Below are positions 1,600 through 35,110 of a DNA stretch of 64,000 nt, piece by piece; the first letter of the stretch is position 1; the number at the start of each line of letters is the position of its first letter. Position numbers and translations under genes: made by a program. A model generated the notes under the pieces. The model had not been told where the DNA came from. It made no database searches and worked only from the letters and a program-made list of their open reading frames with translations. This DNA is from Jiulongibacter sp. (GTDB taxonomy: Bacteria > Bacteroidota > Bacteroidia > Cytophagales > Spirosomataceae): positions 1-64,000 of the forward strand of contig JAHEBN010000003.1 in NCBI GenBank assembly GCA_024645245.1, in the 5' to 3' direction.

Positions 1600-4116
1600 T
1601 TATTTTAGAACAGAAATTTTAAATCGTCTGATTGCCGCAATGCTGATACCTGAAACAAGCAGAGCAATGCCTAGCCAAAGTAGATTGATTAATGGCTTTT
1701 CAATGGCTTTTAAAACTATATAATCCCTTTCACTACGACTTATAGAGAAAGTGAATTGGCCAGTGAGAGGATCAATTTTACTTAATTGAGCACGCAAGCC
1801 AAGTTCATTGCTTGTGACGGGTTTGCTCCAAACCTGGTTGCTTTTAATTACAAATGCCGGTCTGATAATTCTTTCCCCGTCTCGGTCGAGTATTCTTAAG
1901 GTAGATACTGCTGCCGCATCGCCCTCTTCTAATTTCATCCCATCAATTTCCCGAACACCTTGAACATCATCAAGGATTGCAACGTAATCATTGAGAAAGA
2001 AAGTATCTTTCAGAGCTACAGTATAGTCCATTGGGAGACCCCATTCTTTATCTTCATCCAGAACCACATAGGTTACATGCGAGTAAACATCTTTATTCCA
2101 GAATTTTTTAATATCTGGAGATACAACATTTCCCATTTTTTCATTTTTTTGAAAACGTGGAAACAGATTGTAACTTTTACCTTTATCTGTTGTATAATTT
2201 ACCTCGAAATAGGTATTTTCTGCTTCATAAGCCAAAGTATCGCCTCGATGTTTTAAAGTATCGCTGCCATCCACAATATCTGCTTTGGCTACGCCCAAAT
2301 ATCCTGTTCCAACTATAGGTTGTACAAATTTCTTTTCAATGTAACCCGGTACTCCCCGTACATCTAGAAATTGTCCTGCGTAATTCAGACTGAAATCCTT
2401 TAATTTATAAGGCCTGTTGAGCCAAAGAAGTACATTTTCTTTACTTTCTTCATCTGAATCCGAGAAGATTTTCGAACCTGTAGTATTGATGGAAACAGTT
2501 TTTTCATAGGCTGAAGAATACATGATTCCAATTAACATCAGGGCAAGACCAATATGAGCCATTGCTCCACCGGCTACTTTTATTTTTCCTTTAAATAACT
2601 CAAATAGTATATGAGCATTGGCTACAATGGCAAACATGGAAGCTACCAGTAGCAAAATGTATTGAATATCCTTTAGGGGTGTAAGAAGAATAAATAAAGA
2701 AGAAACAAATAATGCTATAATAAGCGGATTAAGTAATTTCTTTAAATTTTTTTCATCCGTTTTACGCCAAAATAAATATTGAGCAATACCTGTAAGAATT
2801 GTAGCTCCCATAAATAGCCACATTTGAAAACCGGTATAATGCTTAATCTGATTAGAAGGTAAAGCCATATTCAATTTGATACCCAATGCTTTAGCCAAGC
2901 TATTATAGACAGGTATGGATGTAGTGATAATTACTTGAAAAGCAGCCAAAGAAAGTACCAAAACACCCATTATGATCCAAAAGTCTGCGTTCCAGGTTTG
3001 CAATTCTTTATTGTCTTTAGGCAAAAGTTTCCACCTGAATATACTTAGCAGTATAGATCCGAAAAGAAATACAAAAAGATAGATCATCAATTGACCAGAA
3101 AGCCCCAGATCTGTGAAAGAGTGTACGGAGGCATTTCCCAATATCCCGCTTCGGGTAAGGAAAGTGGAATATAAAATAAGTATAAACTGTGCTATAATTA
3201 ATATGTAGCTATATTTTAAAGCAGTACTGCTTTTTCTGGCCAATAGTACGGTATGAAATGAAGCAACTAAGACAATCCAGGGAACGTATACCGCATTTTC
3301 TACCGGATCCCAATTCCAGTAACCTCCAAAGTTAAGGGTTTCATAAGCCCAGATACCGCCCATCATGATTCCTGTTCCCAAAATTACAGCAGCAGTTAAT
3401 GACCAGGGCAAAGCTTTATTTAACCAACCATGAAAATCTTTTTTCCAAAGAGATGCCATGGCCATAGCAAAAGGTACCATAGTTAATGAGAATCCTAAAA
3501 ACAAAGTGGGAGGATGTATGACCATCCAATAATTCTGTAATAATGGATTCAAACCATTTCCATCTTTTGGTACAAAGTCGGGCTGCATTTGCCAAACTGG
3601 TAAGTCAGGCATGGATTGCTTTAGAAGAAGAAATGGAGAACTACCTATTTTAAATTGTTCAAAAAATACCACACCTAAAATCATTGAAGAAAGAAATACC
3701 TGCACAGAAGTAATTATGAACATTACAGGTGCTTGTAAATGATCCGTTTTTTTTCGATTTGTTAAAATAAGAATCAATCCAACCCAGGCGTTCCAAAACA
3801 TCCAGAGTAAAAAACTACCTTCCTGATCTTGCCAAAAACAGGAAATAGCATAACCCAAAGGCAAGCTCATGGAGCTGTTATCCCAGGCGTAATGGTATTC
3901 AAAATAATGATTAAATATAATTGCGAAAAGTGAGGCACAAATTATTACTACCGAGATTAGCTGAAACACAAATAAACGATTGGCATTTTTCTGCCAATAA
4001 GCCTGATTTTCATTTTGAGCCGTAGCTTTCCAATAGAAATAGGCTGCAATTAAGGAGCTTATAAATGTTAAGATTACTGAGATATGTCCAATTTCGCCTA
4101 AATATGGTCTGAGCAT
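1600..4116 (-). CDS. ccmF: Cytochrome c haem lyase, CcmF/CcsA family
   Basis: Large polytopic inner-membrane protein of the haem-handling family that attaches haem to apocytochrome c outside the membrane. Numbered from the longer start at 4164, it shows WQDQEGS at 111-117, WMVIHPPTLFLG at 213-224 and the tryptophan-rich haem-binding WWD-type motif GGYWNWDPVEN at 280-290, with a further periplasmic His near SVHSFTDL. The C-terminal third contains a periplasmic domain and a final membrane helix. The ATG at 4116 gives MLRPYLGEIGHISVI, which fits family N-termini (a GxxGH motif near the start); the start at 4164 would add 16 residues. It is divergent from two thioredoxin-like genes that could supply reduced CXXCH cysteines. 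Confidence 0.9.
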   Translation of the reverse strand: MLRPYLGEIGHISVILTFISSLIAAYFYWKATAQNENQAYWQKNANRLFVFQLISVVIICASLFAIIFNHYFEYHYAWDNSSMSLPLGYAISCFWQDQEGSFLLWMFWNAWVGLILILTNRKKTDHLQAPVMFIITSVQVFLSSMILGVVFFEQFKIGSSPFLLLKQSMPDLPVWQMQPDFVPKDGNGLNPLLQNYWMVIHPPTLFLGFSLTMVPFAMAMASLWKKDFHGWLNKALPWSLTAAVILGTGIMMGGIWAYETLNFGGYWNWDPVENAVYVPWIVLVASFHTVLLARKSSTALKYSYILIIAQFILILYSTFLTRSGILGNASVHSFTDLGLSGQLMIYLFVFLFGSILLSIFRWKLLPKDNKELQTWNADFWIIMGVLVLSLAAFQVIITTSIPVYNSLAKALGIKLNMALPSNQIKHYTGFQMWLFMGATILTGIAQYLFWRKTDEKNLKKLLNPLIIALFVSSLFILLTPLKDIQYILLLVASMFAIVANAHILFELFKGKIKVAGGAMAHIGLALMLIGIMYSSAYEKTVSINTTGSKIFSDSDEESKENVLLWLNRPYKLKDFSLNYAGQFLDVRGVPGYIEKKFVQPIVGTGYLGVAKADIVDGSDTLKHRGDTLAYEAENTYFEVNYTTDKGKSYNLFPRFQKNEKMGNVVSPDIKKFWNKDVYSHVTYVVLDEDKEWGLPMDYTVALKDTFFLNDYVAILDDVQGVREIDGMKLEEGDAAAVSTLRILDRDGERIIRPAFVIKSNQVWSKPVTSNELGLRAQLSKIDPLTGQFTFSISRSERDYIVLKAIEKPLINLLWLGIALLVSGISIAAIRRFKISVLK

Positions 4117-4255
4117 TGCTGATTGCTGATGTTTTAAGAAATAAAGTGCAAATTTACTCATCAAAGCAGCACGGCTTTAGTTTTTTAGTAAAAATTAATG
4201 CAATCACGCATAAAAAAGAATAAGCCTTTCGTTTTGATTATCAGAAGATTATTAA

Positions 4256-5617
4256 ATGGGTAAATATTTTTTTTCGAGGATGAACTGGAAAATCAAGTGG
4301 TATATATCAGCAATTTTGGTTTCGTTTTTACTGGAACATCAATCAAAAGCTCAGGGTGTACTTTTCTGTCAAAATAGTTGCGATAGTCTTTTTAAAGTAG
4401 CGGAAACACAAAATCAAATGCTTTTTGTGGATCTTTATGCTGATTGGTGTGCCCCTTGCAAAACCATGGAAAAGATGGTTTTTACAAATGAATCTGTCGG
4501 TGCATATTTTAATAAAGAATTCTTAAATATTCGGGTAAATGTAAATCACGATTTTGGTAAATGGCTGATCGAAAAATACCACATTACTGAGTTTCCCACC
4601 TATTTATTCCTAAATCATGAAAATGGTTTAGTGTATAAAATTATTGGATATCAGTCGATTAATAATCTATCTGATGAAGCAAAAAAAGCATCCCAGATAT
4701 GGCAGAAATTTATTCCATTAAAGCAATTGGATCAGAATTTTGCCGAAGGAAATAGAAATCAAAATTTTTTATACGAATATATTAAAAGGAAAAACACCGA
4801 AACAGGACCTCAACCCGAGCTTTTAGATGCATTTCTTCAATCTGTTCCTAAATCCGAATTGAGAACCGAAAAGGTACTTGAGGTAATTTCCGCCAATTGT
4901 AAGTCTGTAAAGTCTACAGCTTTTCAGGTATTAGTTGAGTCATTGAGTAGGTTCCAGTCCATGACTGAAATGCAGCAAAAGGCTATACTTTCTGGAATTT
5001 CTAATTCTAAAAAAGAAACACTTCGAAAGGCAATTCAGGAAAAAGACGATGAATTATTTAATGTTTTGATTGATGCGGTTTATCAAACAGCCTATAGCCG
5101 TGAGTCGGCTTTCGCTGAAGAAAGACAGCTTCGGTATGATTTTGCAAAACATACTTCTAATTTTAAATTTTTTAAAATAATTGCAGAAGAGGAAGCCATG
5201 AATATTTTACAAAGAAACCCGGAAGATTACCAACAAGAAACGCAACAAACGATTGAGGAATTCAAAGCTGGTGCCGTTTCCAGGGGAATTTCTGCCAATT
5301 CTTCTCAGTATAATATGATATTAGCCGGGTTGGAAAATGGGGCATCAAGATTGGCATCTTATCAATTGAATGACTTTGCAAGGGGTTATTATTTAATGGC
5401 TGATAAGACTGAAGAATTTAAGCTGGCCTTAAAATGGTCGGCCTATTCAATTAAGCTAAATGAGACAGCCGCAAATTGGGAAACATATGGGCTTTTACTT
5501 GGTAAGCTGGGTAGAAAATCAGACGCCAGAAAGGCTTTAAAAAGAGCTTTTAAGCTCGGGAAAACAGAAAAACCGCTGAATGGAAGTCTTAAGGAATATC
5601 TGAAATCTAAATTGTAA
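4256..5617 (+). CDS. Exported thioredoxin-fold protein with helical C-terminal domain
   Basis: Probable periplasmic thiol-disulphide protein. A signal peptide (hydrophobic stretch YISAILVSFLL) is followed by a thioredoxin domain of about 110 residues with the active site WCAPC at 64-68 and the cis-proline region TEFPTYLFL. The remaining 300 or so residues are mostly helical; the last 60 (ALKWSAYSIKLNETAANWE, GRKSDARKALKRAFKLG) look like TPR repeats. The ATG at 4280 gives a more compact signal peptide and is a reasonable alternative start. It is divergent from ccmF and followed by a second thioredoxin-like gene, so a role in cytochrome c maturation or envelope redox folding is inferred. Confidence 0.8.
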   Translation: MGKYFFSRMNWKIKWYISAILVSFLLEHQSKAQGVLFCQNSCDSLFKVAETQNQMLFVDLYADWCAPCKTMEKMVFTNESVGAYFNKEFLNIRVNVNHDFGKWLIEKYHITEFPTYLFLNHENGLVYKIIGYQSINNLSDEAKKASQIWQKFIPLKQLDQNFAEGNRNQNFLYEYIKRKNTETGPQPELLDAFLQSVPKSELRTEKVLEVISANCKSVKSTAFQVLVESLSRFQSMTEMQQKAILSGISNSKKETLRKAIQEKDDELFNVLIDAVYQTAYSRESAFAEERQLRYDFAKHTSNFKFFKIIAEEEAMNILQRNPEDYQQETQQTIEEFKAGAVSRGISANSSQYNMILAGLENGASRLASYQLNDFARGYYLMADKTEEFKLALKWSAYSIKLNETAANWETYGLLLGKLGRKSDARKALKRAFKLGKTEKPLNGSLKEYLKSKL

Positions 5618-31610: not shown

Positions 31611-31623
31611 AACACAATGTGTT
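31611..31623. promoter_or_regulatory. 13-bp palindrome upstream of the hemerythrin-like gene
   Basis: AACACAATGTGTT is a perfect inverted repeat with one central base, 28 nt before the ATG at 31652. It could be an operator; the factor is unknown. Confidence 0.3.
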
Positions 31624-31651
31624 CAACTTTACATTTCTGAATTTATTAAAT

Positions 31652-32356
31652 ATGAATAACAAGACTTACGAGGAATTAATAAGTGGAAACCAGATTTACC
31701 AAATGGTTACAGAACGTTTGGATACATACTCTACAGACATTGAAAATCTGAAATATGGGGAGATGAACAATGAACTTCTGGATTTGATTCTTGACCTTTA
31801 TGATGATGATAAGGACTTCCCATACAATAAGCTACGTAAATTTTCGATAAGTGAAATTTTGGGATATCTGCAGGCTTCGCATAAATATTATTTAACCAAA
31901 AAACTTCCTGAAATTGAGCAATCCTTGCTCCATATTTTCAGCAAATATGGGCAAACGCATCAATTATTGGCAGCGTTGGCTATGTTTTTTAATAGTTATA
32001 AAACTAAACTGGTTGCACATATTAAAACAGAAGAGAAAGAGTTTTTTCCATATATAAAAAAGCTAATGAAGGCTGAAAAAGGTGAATTGGATTCCAATGC
32101 AAAAGCGGGATTGTTTTCTGAGTCTTCTGTCGAGGATTTTAATGATACGCACGATCCAATTGAAGATGAGTTAAAAGAAGTTTCCAAAATAATTCAGGAG
32201 TTTTCGGGGAAGGACGAAATGCCGCTTCCTTATCGAATCTTTTTGAATCAGGTTGAATTATTCGAGTTGGAGCTTCGTAAGCACGCCATAATTGAAGATC
32301 ATGTATTGGTGCCTATGGCTATAGAGTTGGAAAATAAGTTAAAAAATGTTGCCTGA
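31652..32356 (+). CDS. Hemerythrin-like diiron protein, possibly RIC/YtfE-type
   Basis: A 234-aa all-helical protein with a hemerythrin four-helix pattern: ASHKYYLTKKLPEIE, HIKTEEKEFFPYI (HxxxE), NDTHDPIEDEL and LRKHAIIEDHVLVP (HxxxEDH). These His and Glu residues are the expected diiron ligands. An N-terminal helical region of about 80 residues precedes it, as in RIC iron-sulphur repair proteins, but the Cys-containing ScdA_N motif is not visible. ATG 31652 was chosen; an upstream ATG at 31619 falls in a palindrome. It lies 76 nt after btuB on the same strand and may be cotranscribed with it. Function likely involves iron, oxygen or nitric oxide. Confidence 0.75.
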   Translation: MNNKTYEELISGNQIYQMVTERLDTYSTDIENLKYGEMNNELLDLILDLYDDDKDFPYNKLRKFSISEILGYLQASHKYYLTKKLPEIEQSLLHIFSKYGQTHQLLAALAMFFNSYKTKLVAHIKTEEKEFFPYIKKLMKAEKGELDSNAKAGLFSESSVEDFNDTHDPIEDELKEVSKIIQEFSGKDEMPLPYRIFLNQVELFELELRKHAIIEDHVLVPMAIELENKLKNVA

Positions 32357-32358
32357 TT

Positions 32359-33657
32359 TCAAGATTTGGTCATTTTAAGTTGACAAACTACTTTTCCGAT
32401 TCGTTTTCCGTTTTTAAGCCCTTCCTCATTAGACATCCGGTAATGGATGCCTCCGTACAGACGAGACATTGCCGCCTCTTGGGCATATTCAAGAAAACTT
32501 TCGAAACTTCGGGGTTTAAGTCCATTTTGGTCGTGAGAGTGATCTATAAAGGCATAATTGTAACCAAAAATATCGGAAAGAACCAATGCAATGGCACCGC
32601 TCACTGTTCCGTGGCCTGAAGTATATTCTGGGAAAGGCGGGTTTTCTAAATATGAATTCCATTTTGAATCAATGGCAGTTTGAATAAACGTGACGGGTCT
32701 AAGCATATTATACATATACTTACATTTCCAACATGAGATAAAAGCATCATGAGCCGCAATCCCAACCCGGCAATACACTTCGGCAGCCTTTTCCAAACTC
32801 AGATTTTCTTTCAAAATTAATTGTGTGGTAATAGAAACGCCATGTCCGGGTGGCGTAAAGGTCTTACCAGGATCATCAGACCAAAATCGGGCTATGTCTT
32901 TTTGTTCTTCATTAAGATTTTTTCCTACACTGTATACTTCAAGTGCAGCTACATATAATGGTGAGCTATTACCTAATACGCATGGAGGAGGTACAGGTAA
33001 ATGAAAATCAGCATTGCCTTTTACAAACGTGCGGTTTTCACCCCAATGAGGTTGAAGTGCGTGTTGATTTCCTACCGGTACCCACATACAAGCCCCAGGT
33101 ACCAATTTATAATCTTTAGGGAAATTGTTTTTATGTGCTTCATGCCCACCATCAGATTTTGAATAGGCATAAATTGCTTTGGCTATTTCTTCACCGTATT
33201 TAATAGAGTTTCGAATAACACTTTCATTTAATCCTGCAGAAAGTCTGGAGAGTGTCCTGTTTTTTAAATCTTCAATTTCTCTGGCATTCTGATCACTAGT
33301 GTTTGAAAACATTAAGGCAGTAATAAGCGACTGAGCAGAGTTAGCCACAATACTCCAATTGTAAATTTGACTTTTTTGAGGTAAAGGCATTTTGTCAAAC
33401 TTATCCAATTGGCCTACAAGCGAATTGTAATTTTGGCTGCCATTTACAATTGATTCATAAAGAGTAAGTCCTGTATATCCAAATAACCTGGAAACTACTG
33501 GAGGAGTAAACCCTTCTGTTTTTGGAATCAGCTGGATTTGCAAATCAAACCAATCTGTGGCTACCTGGCTGTCTAGTTCAGCTGTGTTTTTTTGGGCAGT
33601 TACCCGAAAGGATAGCAGCACTAGAAAGCTGATTATATAAAGAAAAGTGTTTTTCAA
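32359..33657 (-). CDS. Vanadium-dependent haloperoxidase/PAP2-family protein, motifs intact
   Basis: Exported protein of 432 aa (signal peptide ending SFRVTAQ). The PAP2/vanadate-pocket motifs are present in order: KYMYNMLRPVTFI (motif 1, Lys and Arg), PEYTSGHGTVSGA (motif 2, Ser-Gly-His) and SRLYGGIHYRMS (motif 3, Arg and catalytic His). The same fold serves vanadium haloperoxidases and acid phosphatases; length and the DWFDLQIQLIPKTEGFTPPVVSR N-terminus fit bacterial haloperoxidase relatives. It lies 2 nt from the convergent hemerythrin-like gene and 67 nt after a paralogue on the same strand. Confidence 0.88.
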   Translation of the reverse strand: MKNTFLYIISFLVLLSFRVTAQKNTAELDSQVATDWFDLQIQLIPKTEGFTPPVVSRLFGYTGLTLYESIVNGSQNYNSLVGQLDKFDKMPLPQKSQIYNWSIVANSAQSLITALMFSNTSDQNAREIEDLKNRTLSRLSAGLNESVIRNSIKYGEEIAKAIYAYSKSDGGHEAHKNNFPKDYKLVPGACMWVPVGNQHALQPHWGENRTFVKGNADFHLPVPPPCVLGNSSPLYVAALEVYSVGKNLNEEQKDIARFWSDDPGKTFTPPGHGVSITTQLILKENLSLEKAAEVYCRVGIAAHDAFISCWKCKYMYNMLRPVTFIQTAIDSKWNSYLENPPFPEYTSGHGTVSGAIALVLSDIFGYNYAFIDHSHDQNGLKPRSFESFLEYAQEAAMSRLYGGIHYRMSNEEGLKNGKRIGKVVCQLKMTKS

Positions 33658-33724
33658 AATGACCCGATTGTTGATAATCTGACGACCAACAATTTATTAA
33701 ATTATTCTGATTTATTAAGTACAC

Positions 33725-35110
33725 TTATTCAGATGTTTTTTTGATCGGAAGTGCGAGTATATTTTTAGCAATTTCTATGCCATTTAAAAGACCATTTTTG
33801 CACGACATGCGATAATGTATACCTCCATAAATCTGTGAAATACTGGCTTCGCTGGCATAATCAGTAAAGTTTTTAAAAGCTCTTTTATTTTTTTTGCCGG
33901 CATAGGTATTGTCTTCAAAAACATATTCTTCTCCAAATTGGTCGGCCATAATAGTTGCGGCGATTCCAGCTATTGTACTTTCAATTGAAGTATAATCCGG
34001 GCTGGAAGAATTAAGGTTTAAAGAACTCCAACCAGGATTTAATGCTTGTCGGATATAGGTAACCGGACGCATATAGTTATAGTTATATTTTGCTCTCATG
34101 GAGCTAATTACTGCGTCATTCATGGCCAGGCCAAATTTCAGGTTAAATACTGCGACTTTATCCAATTTAAGTCCTTCTTTAGTGGCTAAGGTATTTGCTA
34201 CCGCGAGGTGATGGCCTGCAGCCCCTAATAATTCATTTTCATCATTCCAAAAATCTGCTATTGCTTTTTGCTCAGGATTTAAAGAGGCTGAAATTAAATA
34301 TATTTCATTTGCTTCTTTAAAAAAATCGGATTCTTTCTCAAAAGAAAATGGAACCGGTAGCAGAAAGGTCTGATTCTTATTAATCTCTAAAAATTGGCGG
34401 ACATTTCCCCAATTGGGTAACAAGGGAGTTTTTTGATTTCCGGTAGGTTGCCAGGCTGCAGCACCACCTTTTCTGATATAAGTACCAGAGAAATTATTGT
34501 TATAGGCTAAATGACCACCATCCGTTTTAGAATATTCCCACACCGCCGTGGCCATAGCTGCTCCGAATTTAATAGATCTTTCGATAACGTCCTGATCTAT
34601 TCCAACCTTTAATTTGTTTTCAAAAGTTCTTCTTAAAGTATCAATTCTGGATTTAAAAACATCACTTGAGGTCGCATAGATTTCACGCATCAAGGTGTAT
34701 TGTGCTGCATTCGCTGCCAGTCCCCAGTTGTATTTTTTATCTGGCTCAATAGTGGGTATATCATTCCAGTTTTGAAGCTTTCCTTCCAGACTTTGGTAAC
34801 CGGGCATTCCGGGCACAATAGTTTCATAAGTAGCTAAAGATAAATAACCTATAGTGCGTGCCGCCACAGGTGAAATATAACCGGGCGTAGCTTGAATAAG
34901 TTTTATCTGAAGTTCATTCCAATCTGTAATTACATTACCCGAATAAGTTTCGGCCAAAATAGATACAGCATTCGAGGTGCCGGTAGAATCTTCCTGAGGA
35001 TTTATATCGCCTCCACCACCTCCTTTTTTACAGGAAAAAAATACTCCTACGAATAAAGTAAGGAAGACAAAGTGTATAAGGGTATTTTTAATGTATTTGA
35101 TTTTCTCCAT
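33725..35110 (-). CDS. Haloperoxidase/PAP2 paralogue with degenerate active site, lipoprotein
   Basis: A 461-aa paralogue of the next gene. The N-terminus has a lipobox ending at Cys27 (GVFFSC) followed by KKGGGGGD, so it is probably a lipoprotein. Motif 1 is kept (KYNYNYMRPVTYI). Motif 2, SGHGTVSG in the neighbour, reads TSIESTIAG here, losing the Gly and His. In motif 3, SRLYGGIHY becomes SQIYGGIHY, losing the Arg. Vanadate or phosphate binding is thus probably lost, and a structural or binding role is inferred. The two genes are a tandem duplication with diverged function. Confidence 0.82.
   Translation of the reverse strand: MEKIKYIKNTLIHFVFLTLFVGVFFSCKKGGGGGDINPQEDSTGTSNAVSILAETYSGNVITDWNELQIKLIQATPGYISPVAARTIGYLSLATYETIVPGMPGYQSLEGKLQNWNDIPTIEPDKKYNWGLAANAAQYTLMREIYATSSDVFKSRIDTLRRTFENKLKVGIDQDVIERSIKFGAAMATAVWEYSKTDGGHLAYNNNFSGTYIRKGGAAAWQPTGNQKTPLLPNWGNVRQFLEINKNQTFLLPVPFSFEKESDFFKEANEIYLISASLNPEQKAIADFWNDENELLGAAGHHLAVANTLATKEGLKLDKVAVFNLKFGLAMNDAVISSMRAKYNYNYMRPVTYIRQALNPGWSSLNLNSSSPDYTSIESTIAGIAATIMADQFGEEYVFEDNTYAGKKNKRAFKNFTDYASEASISQIYGGIHYRMSCKNGLLNGIEIAKNILALPIKKTSE

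Follow-up and report, generated by a model that had tools for sequence, protein, structure and literature searches.

The nearest solved relative by sequence of the protein described here, ORF2, is the vanadium iodoperoxidase of Zobellia galactanivorans (4cit, 4usz; phmmer 1.2e-38 against 4cit), whose fold matches that of ORF2 over 392 residues. The iodoperoxidase has the Ser-Gly-His (SGH) triplet and the motif-3 arginine, whereas ORF2 has Ser-Ile-Glu and Gln at these places and, in addition, a lipoprotein N-terminus. NapH3 of the napyradiomycin pathway (8cxl) belongs to the same fold family (Z 32.0) and is a haloperoxidase homologue that carries out an alpha-hydroxyketone rearrangement instead of halogenation (PMC8407142). 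As described there, NapH3 has kept a catalytic role in a biosynthetic pathway, whereas ORF2 lies between its paralogue ORF1 and dnaG and its motif replacements are not conserved. Pseudoenzymes as a kind are already known, and so, as clusters, are VHPO homologues without catalytic residues, which a survey of halogenases notices, in its available passages, without analysis of orthology, selection or repeated loss and without the lineage of ORF2 (PMC12871659). The pseudophosphatases STYX and MK-STYX are likewise catalytically dead and kept for binding or regulation. Their fold is unrelated to that of ORF2, and they act in eukaryotic signalling. In the open-access literature searched, we found no paper joining vanadium, haloperoxidase and pseudoenzyme, nothing on the lineage of ORF2 by titles and abstract openings, and no single orthologous lineage in which the active site is lost repeatedly, the dead protein is retained and the live tandem partner is lost.

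The window, that is, the whole 64,000-nucleotide stretch of Jiulongibacter sp. DNA that was analysed, contains the features collected in Table 1. The ORF2 frame starts with ATG, and its 461 codons contain no internal stop.

Table 1. Positions in the window of the ORF2 and ORF1 genes and of the ORF2 residues discussed in the text.
Feature	Position	Strand	Basis
ORF2, lipoprotein with a dismantled active site in a predicted vanadium-haloperoxidase fold, 461 aa	33725..35110	-	ORF, profile, alignment, model
ORF2 Cys27, presumed lipidation site	35030..35032	-	invariant in 23/23 aligned rows; lipidation inferred
ORF2 motif 1, Lys341 to Arg348, kept	34067..34090	-	alignment with ORF1
ORF2 motif 2, Ser375-Ile376-Glu377 replacing Ser-Gly-His	33980..33988	-	alignment with ORF1
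ORF2 motif 3, Gln426 (replacing Arg) to His432 (kept)	33815..33835	-	alignment with ORF1
ORF1, haloperoxidase-family paralogue, apparently a secreted non-lipoprotein, 432 aa, TTG start	32359..33657	-	ORF, profile, alignment, model
Intergenic gap between ORF2 and ORF1, 67 bases	33658..33724	-	ORF2 upstream, same strand

The alignment with ORF1 confirmed what the earlier note had claimed for ORF2, namely the change of SGH to SIE and of the motif-3 Arg to Gln, with motif 1 kept. ORF2 has the Lys341 and Arg348 of the K-x6-R-P pattern (in KYNYNYMRP) and the vanadate-ligating histidine (His432); it lacks the SGH triplet, in which Ser375 is kept while Gly is changed to Ile376 and His to Glu377, and it lacks the motif-3 Arg of an active vanadium-dependent haloperoxidase, having Gln426 instead. 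Two further conserved positions nearby are altered, F to S370 and W to M338, and we take this W338 to match Trp350. The description of the Curvularia enzyme gives Ser402, His404, Arg490 and His496 as active-site residues and names Phe397 near the substrate (PMC10278073), to which column 370 of ORF2 (F370) corresponds by spacing. The residue four positions after the last His is Ser in ORF2 and ORF1 alike. With the PAP2 profile (PF01569), ORF2 scored 13.2 bits, below the cut-off of 27.2, and ORF1 31.2 bits, above it; the NCBIfam search gave no useful match. The intact tandem copy that had been proposed was also found, as ORF1, separated from ORF2 by 67 bases and on the same strand, is 39% identical to it over 402 residues and is intact at all seven motif residues (Lys313, Arg320, Ser347-Gly348-His349, Arg399 and His405).

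The earlier claim that the rest of the ORF2 fold is kept agrees with the predicted structure. The AlphaFold2 model of ORF2 (alignment of 51 rows) had a mean pLDDT of 91.4 and a pTM of 0.87, compared with 92.2 and 0.91 for the model of ORF1 (47 rows). The ORF2 model matched 4cit with Z 49.5 and an rmsd of 2.4 over 392 residues at 26% identity, and the next haloperoxidases after 4cit had Z 31-34. The helical-bundle haloperoxidase fold is thus predicted to be whole in ORF2, with an altered active site.

The pair is surrounded by genes for a phosphoglucomutase, a TonB-dependent receptor, a hemerythrin-domain protein and dnaG. No terminator-like site is listed in the 67-base gap, and co-transcription of ORF2 and ORF1 is possible; promoter-like sites were fewer than in shuffled sequences and were not used as evidence. 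The hemerythrin-domain gene (window 31619-32356) is convergent with ORF1, their 3' ends being 2 bases apart, and it adjoins ORF1/ORF2 also in G232, G018, G157, G168, G174, G021, G170, G172 and G169. In the window's genome (4.55 Mb), seven places match ORF2 at 1e-5, ORF2 and ORF1 included, and there are eleven PAP2 matches, nine of them above the cut-off.

ORF2 is probably a lipid-anchored envelope protein, to judge from its N-terminus, whereas that of ORF1 resembles, by eye, a signal peptide without the lipobox Cys. The signals given for surface export of Bacteroidota lipoproteins, located after the Cys, are C-X-K-(D/E)2, that of Capnocytophaga, or S-D rich (PMC5080379). The N-terminus of ORF2, C-K-K-G-G-G-G-G, is by eye unlike C-X-K-(D/E)2, although this signal is that of Capnocytophaga and may not be the one used by Cytophagales. 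For surface exposure, or for the surface complex that the earlier note had considered, we found no evidence.

A single-sequence scan of the genome contigs with ORF2 returned zero relatives. A search with profile A1 then yielded 99, and the 80 best of these were retained. In the following, genome counts include the window's own genome. A match at E 1e-5 was found in 27 of 39 genomes. Within the same family, 28 of 222 genomes had a match at 1e-92, and in an evenly drawn order-level sample 11 of 390 genomes had one at 1e-88, all 11 belonging to the window's family. The 28 family genomes comprise 21 with a sequence in the ORF2 clade, two of Spirosoma (G207 and G226) and five others; among the 28, G142, G134 and G155 matched through ORF1 only, and the sequences of G208 and G224 fall outside both the ORF1 and ORF2 clades. 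Genomes named below include Jiulongibacter sediminis (G018), Emticicia (G133, G139 and G140), Lacihabitans (G021, G168, G169 and G174), Leadbetterella sp. (G173) and Emticicia sp. CRIBPO (G170), which is grouped here with the Lacihabitans genus despite its name. Among the best 80 of the 99 relatives, five at 31-37% identity (L116, L118, L119, L129 and L151) come from records of Comamonadaceae, Burkholderiales, a beta proteobacterium, Micromonospora and Trueperaceae. So scattered a distribution may point to horizontal transfer or to mis-binning of contigs.

The trees used rows of at least 380 residues whose best score exceeded 150 bits, a filter that excluded the fragments at L078, L079 and L080 and also some distant paralogues. 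A tree of 61 rows was followed by one of 53 rows without the motif columns, for which eight distant rows were dropped; the two agree except in the placement of two Spirosoma rows. The 14 rows of ORF1 orthologues group in a single clade, and all 14 are intact. In the 53-row tree the ORF2 clade has 21 rows, of which 11 are dead, that is, without residues that the known mechanism needs, and 10 are intact; in the 61-row tree it has 23, the two added Spirosoma rows being intact. Four groups can be distinguished among the dead rows. P1 consists of the window, G232, G018, G157 and G020, which represent four genera and are dead in all five rows, and P2 is G170. P3 (G169 and G173) shows a partial loss, with SGH kept and Arg and His lost, and P4 (G133, G139 and G140) has lost the motif-1 Arg, Gly, His, Arg and His.

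On the 53-row tree, from which the motif columns are excluded, the dead or intact label needs four changes. Forcing all 11 dead rows into one clade was rejected by the AU test (p 0.00017), the dead group being defined by motifs but after the first tree had been seen. Such change counts are blind to direction, and we read the four changes as losses because regain of several catalytic residues is implausible. On this reading, the ORF2 clade lost its active site on at least four independent occasions. In a quick tree of wider scope (123 rows), from which three cut-off rows were left out and in which repeated sequences were merged, 20 rows are altered in at least one of the seven motif positions and 10 changes are needed, at least 9 of them on starred branches; this count takes in two rows in which only the motif-2 Gly is changed and which may be active.

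Dead or partly dead members also occur outside the ORF2 clade, in Saprospiraceae MAGs (L145, L147 at 3420-4826, L150 and L152) and in a Kapaibacterium MAG (L154). In a Bacteroidota MAG (L158:3492-7885), three haloperoxidase-family, lipoprotein-like frames stand in tandem; the first is intact, the second has C-S-H with the last His changed to Asn, and the third S-E-H with the last His changed to Gln. To judge from these residues, L158 is a second tandem with dead copies.

The residues that remain bear on whether ORF2 has taken up another reaction. If ORF2 were a re-purposed enzyme, the halide or vanadate chemistry would be gone and the remaining Lys, Arg, Ser and His would carry out a different reaction, for which NapH3 would be a precedent (PDB 8cxl; PMC8407142). 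This is the main rival because Lys341 and Ser375 are unchanged in all 11 dead rows; Arg348 is kept in 8 of the 11, and His432 in the window, G232 and G020. However, His432 is lost in G018 and G157, and the motif-2 replacements differ from row to row (IE, LP, AQ, EE and AQ within P1; IE, LP, AQ, EE, IN and DN over the dead groups), so that at the motif positions no alternative set of conserved catalytic residues can be discerned. This variety is what slackened constraint would give. Some replacements recur, namely Ala at 298, Ala-Gln at 425-426 and Gln at 432, perhaps because these changes are easily reached by mutation. When a signature of new chemistry was sought in the five-row dead subclade, seven columns (151, 298, 302, 303, 324, 399 and 409) were invariant in its rows and rare in intact rows, and none of the seven is at one of the seven motif positions. 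We consider a re-purposed catalyst rather unlikely.

The distribution of changes along the protein was compared using as reference the 77 columns of the 53-row alignment in which conservation among the 42 intact rows reaches 95% or more. The number of changed columns was 16 in P1, 21 in P2, 5 in P3 and 15 in P4, compared with 0-3 in seven intact rows checked singly. The departures of the ORF2 subclade (16/77) are beyond chance. The dead groups also share changed columns more often than expected in a test that assumes equal ease of change for all columns (P1/P2, 12 observed and 4.4 expected; P1/P4, 10 and 3.1; P2/P4, 13 and 4.1). The excess persisted when the motif columns were removed (7 and 2.3, 5 and 1.2, and 6 and 1.5, respectively), with p 0.0002-0.0009 for each overlap of P1, P2 and P4, the motif-free columns included. 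Columns 80, 88, 298 and 370 are changed in common by these three groups. The overlap of P3 was weak or at chance (with P1, 2 versus 1.0; with P4, 3 versus 1.0, p 0.048).

When the window is compared with G232, the N-terminal half has 121 identities in 199 positions for ORF2 and 111 in 198 for ORF1, and the C-terminal half has 102 in 200 for ORF2 and 159 in 200 for ORF1. The difference between ORF1 and ORF2 is significant in the C-terminal half (p 3e-9) and not in the N-terminal half (p 0.36), indicating that in this comparison the catalytic half of ORF2 is far less conserved than that of ORF1 and that the N-terminal halves are alike. In a purely descriptive comparison, the mean identity between dead and intact rows was slightly greater in the N-terminal than in the C-terminal half for P1 (0.447/0.411), P2 (0.544/0.518) and P3 (0.760/0.746), and comparisons of intact rows favoured the C-terminal half slightly (0.510/0.559, 0.613/0.668 and 0.617/0.653). 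The Emticicia trio of P4 goes against this N-over-C pattern, with 0.641 for the N-terminal and 0.662 for the C-terminal half when compared with intact Emticicia.

Another possibility is that ORF2 functions exclusively as a partner of ORF1 or as its regulator. The two genes lie 67 bases apart on the same strand, and in 12 genomes, the window included, ORF1 has a complete ORF2 frame as its neighbour (in G024 with ORF1 in pieces), ORF2 being dead in three of them (window, G232 and G169). On the other hand, when whole genomes were searched with ORF1 (E 1e-70), no ORF1 orthologue was found in 7 of the 11 dead-ORF2 genomes, and one more, G173, could not be assessed, its contig ending at ORF2. In the seven (G018, G020, G157, G133, G139, G140 and G170) the search yielded only ORF2 (at most 44% identity) and other paralogues (at most 41%), which were ruled non-ORF1 by identity (56-68% for whole ORF1-clade rows) and synteny, not by a tree. 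The solo dead copies in G018, G157 and G020 stand beside dnaG in the gene order of the window with ORF1 gone, and tblastn for ORF1 remnants in all eight solo loci (L055-L057, L062, L064, L066, L069 and L070) returned the ORF2 gene only. The reverse also occurs, as ORF1 is present in G142, where ORF2 has no match, and in G134, where ORF2 is in pieces. Since solo ORF2 copies exist and ORF1 also occurs without a whole ORF2, neither gene requires the other. We therefore regard an exclusive partnership as improbable, and the enzyme-pseudoenzyme pair of the earlier note does not stand as an obligate unit.

Of the 10 intact rows, all but that of G172 are accompanied by ORF1, which in G024 is in two pieces at a contig end. 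Absence of ORF1 in 7 of 10 assessable dead rows versus 1 of 10 intact rows is suggestive of a tie to the dead state, but it was not significant when kinship was counted (four independent pairs, median p 0.5). Broken frames are found for ORF2 in G134 and the MAG G155 (63% complete) and for ORF1 in the MAG G024 (66% complete); the pieces lie at L078:9685-11005, L079:3-1266 and L080:8153-9240 and may be assembly faults.

Selection on the dead copies was estimated as NG86 dN/dS, which was undefined for 5 of the 24 pairs and is quoted because the maximum likelihood (ML) values were discordant (0.82 versus 0.074 by NG86 for one ORF1 pair; 0.011 and 0.19 for two saturated P1 pairs). The ratio was 0.055-0.068 in the dead Emticicia trio (3 pairs) and 0.056 in the dead G169/G173 pair, compared with 0.048-0.062 for intact ORF2 of Emticicia (6 pairs), 0.074-0.104 for ORF1 of Emticicia (6 pairs) and 0.054 for ORF1 between the window and G232. 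The only defined ORF1 pair of Lacihabitans gave 0.031, below any ORF2 pair, so at least this live pair evolves more slowly than the dead copies. Where it is measurable, that is, in dead copies with close relatives (the Emticicia trio and G169/G173), these ratios indicate strong purifying selection. Synonymous sites in P1 are saturated, and retention in the window's lineage therefore rests on whole frames across four genera.

These data also bear on local decay, in which ORF2 would be on its way to loss. The earlier note had taken intact orthologues as its sign; such orthologues do exist, in 10 of the 21 clade rows, ORF2 is in pieces in G134 and none is seen in G142. Nevertheless, the dead state is common to the whole subclade of the window (5/5 rows, four genera), which argues that it is not local decay, the reading frames are whole, and dN/dS is low in dead lineages where measurable. 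Decay is thus very improbable, and the pseudoenzyme proposal of the earlier note is borne out by a loss that is fixed in the four-genus subclade and recurrent outside it. A sequencing or assembly error at the ORF2 motifs, conceivable in a genome fragmented into 315 contigs, deserves practically no credence, as the frame that carries the motif changes is whole and the single-contig genomes G020 and G232 show losses of a similar kind.

We conclude that ORF2 is probably a vanadium-haloperoxidase-fold pseudoenzyme, an envelope lipoprotein without vanadate or phosphate chemistry that is kept for a non-catalytic role. ORF2 would no longer use vanadate (or phosphate) chemistry, and the function kept may be binding or scaffolding in the cell envelope, residing mainly in the N-terminal helical bundle (residues about 57-255). 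The intact ancestor would already have had this second role, so that catalysis could be dropped repeatedly; the solo copies show that ORF2 is retained without ORF1. As Lys341 and Ser375 (11/11) and Arg348 (8/11) are kept, some anion binding may survive in the dead copies. More tentatively, and with less confidence than in the pseudoenzyme reading itself, the lipoprotein haloperoxidases of Cytophagales could be bifunctional proteins whose main job, carried by the N-terminal bundle, has long been non-enzymatic; catalysis would then be optional, discarded at least four times here and perhaps 9-10 times more widely, with the intact tandem partner often discarded too.

Homology annotation would name the genes of the ORF2 clade haloperoxidases or phosphatases, although 11 of the 21 are without residues that the known mechanism needs. 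The four parallel losses, three of them with close intact relatives, would amount to a natural experiment on a non-catalytic role, and comparison of dead with live copies would make an overlooked envelope function of haloperoxidase-fold lipoproteins testable.
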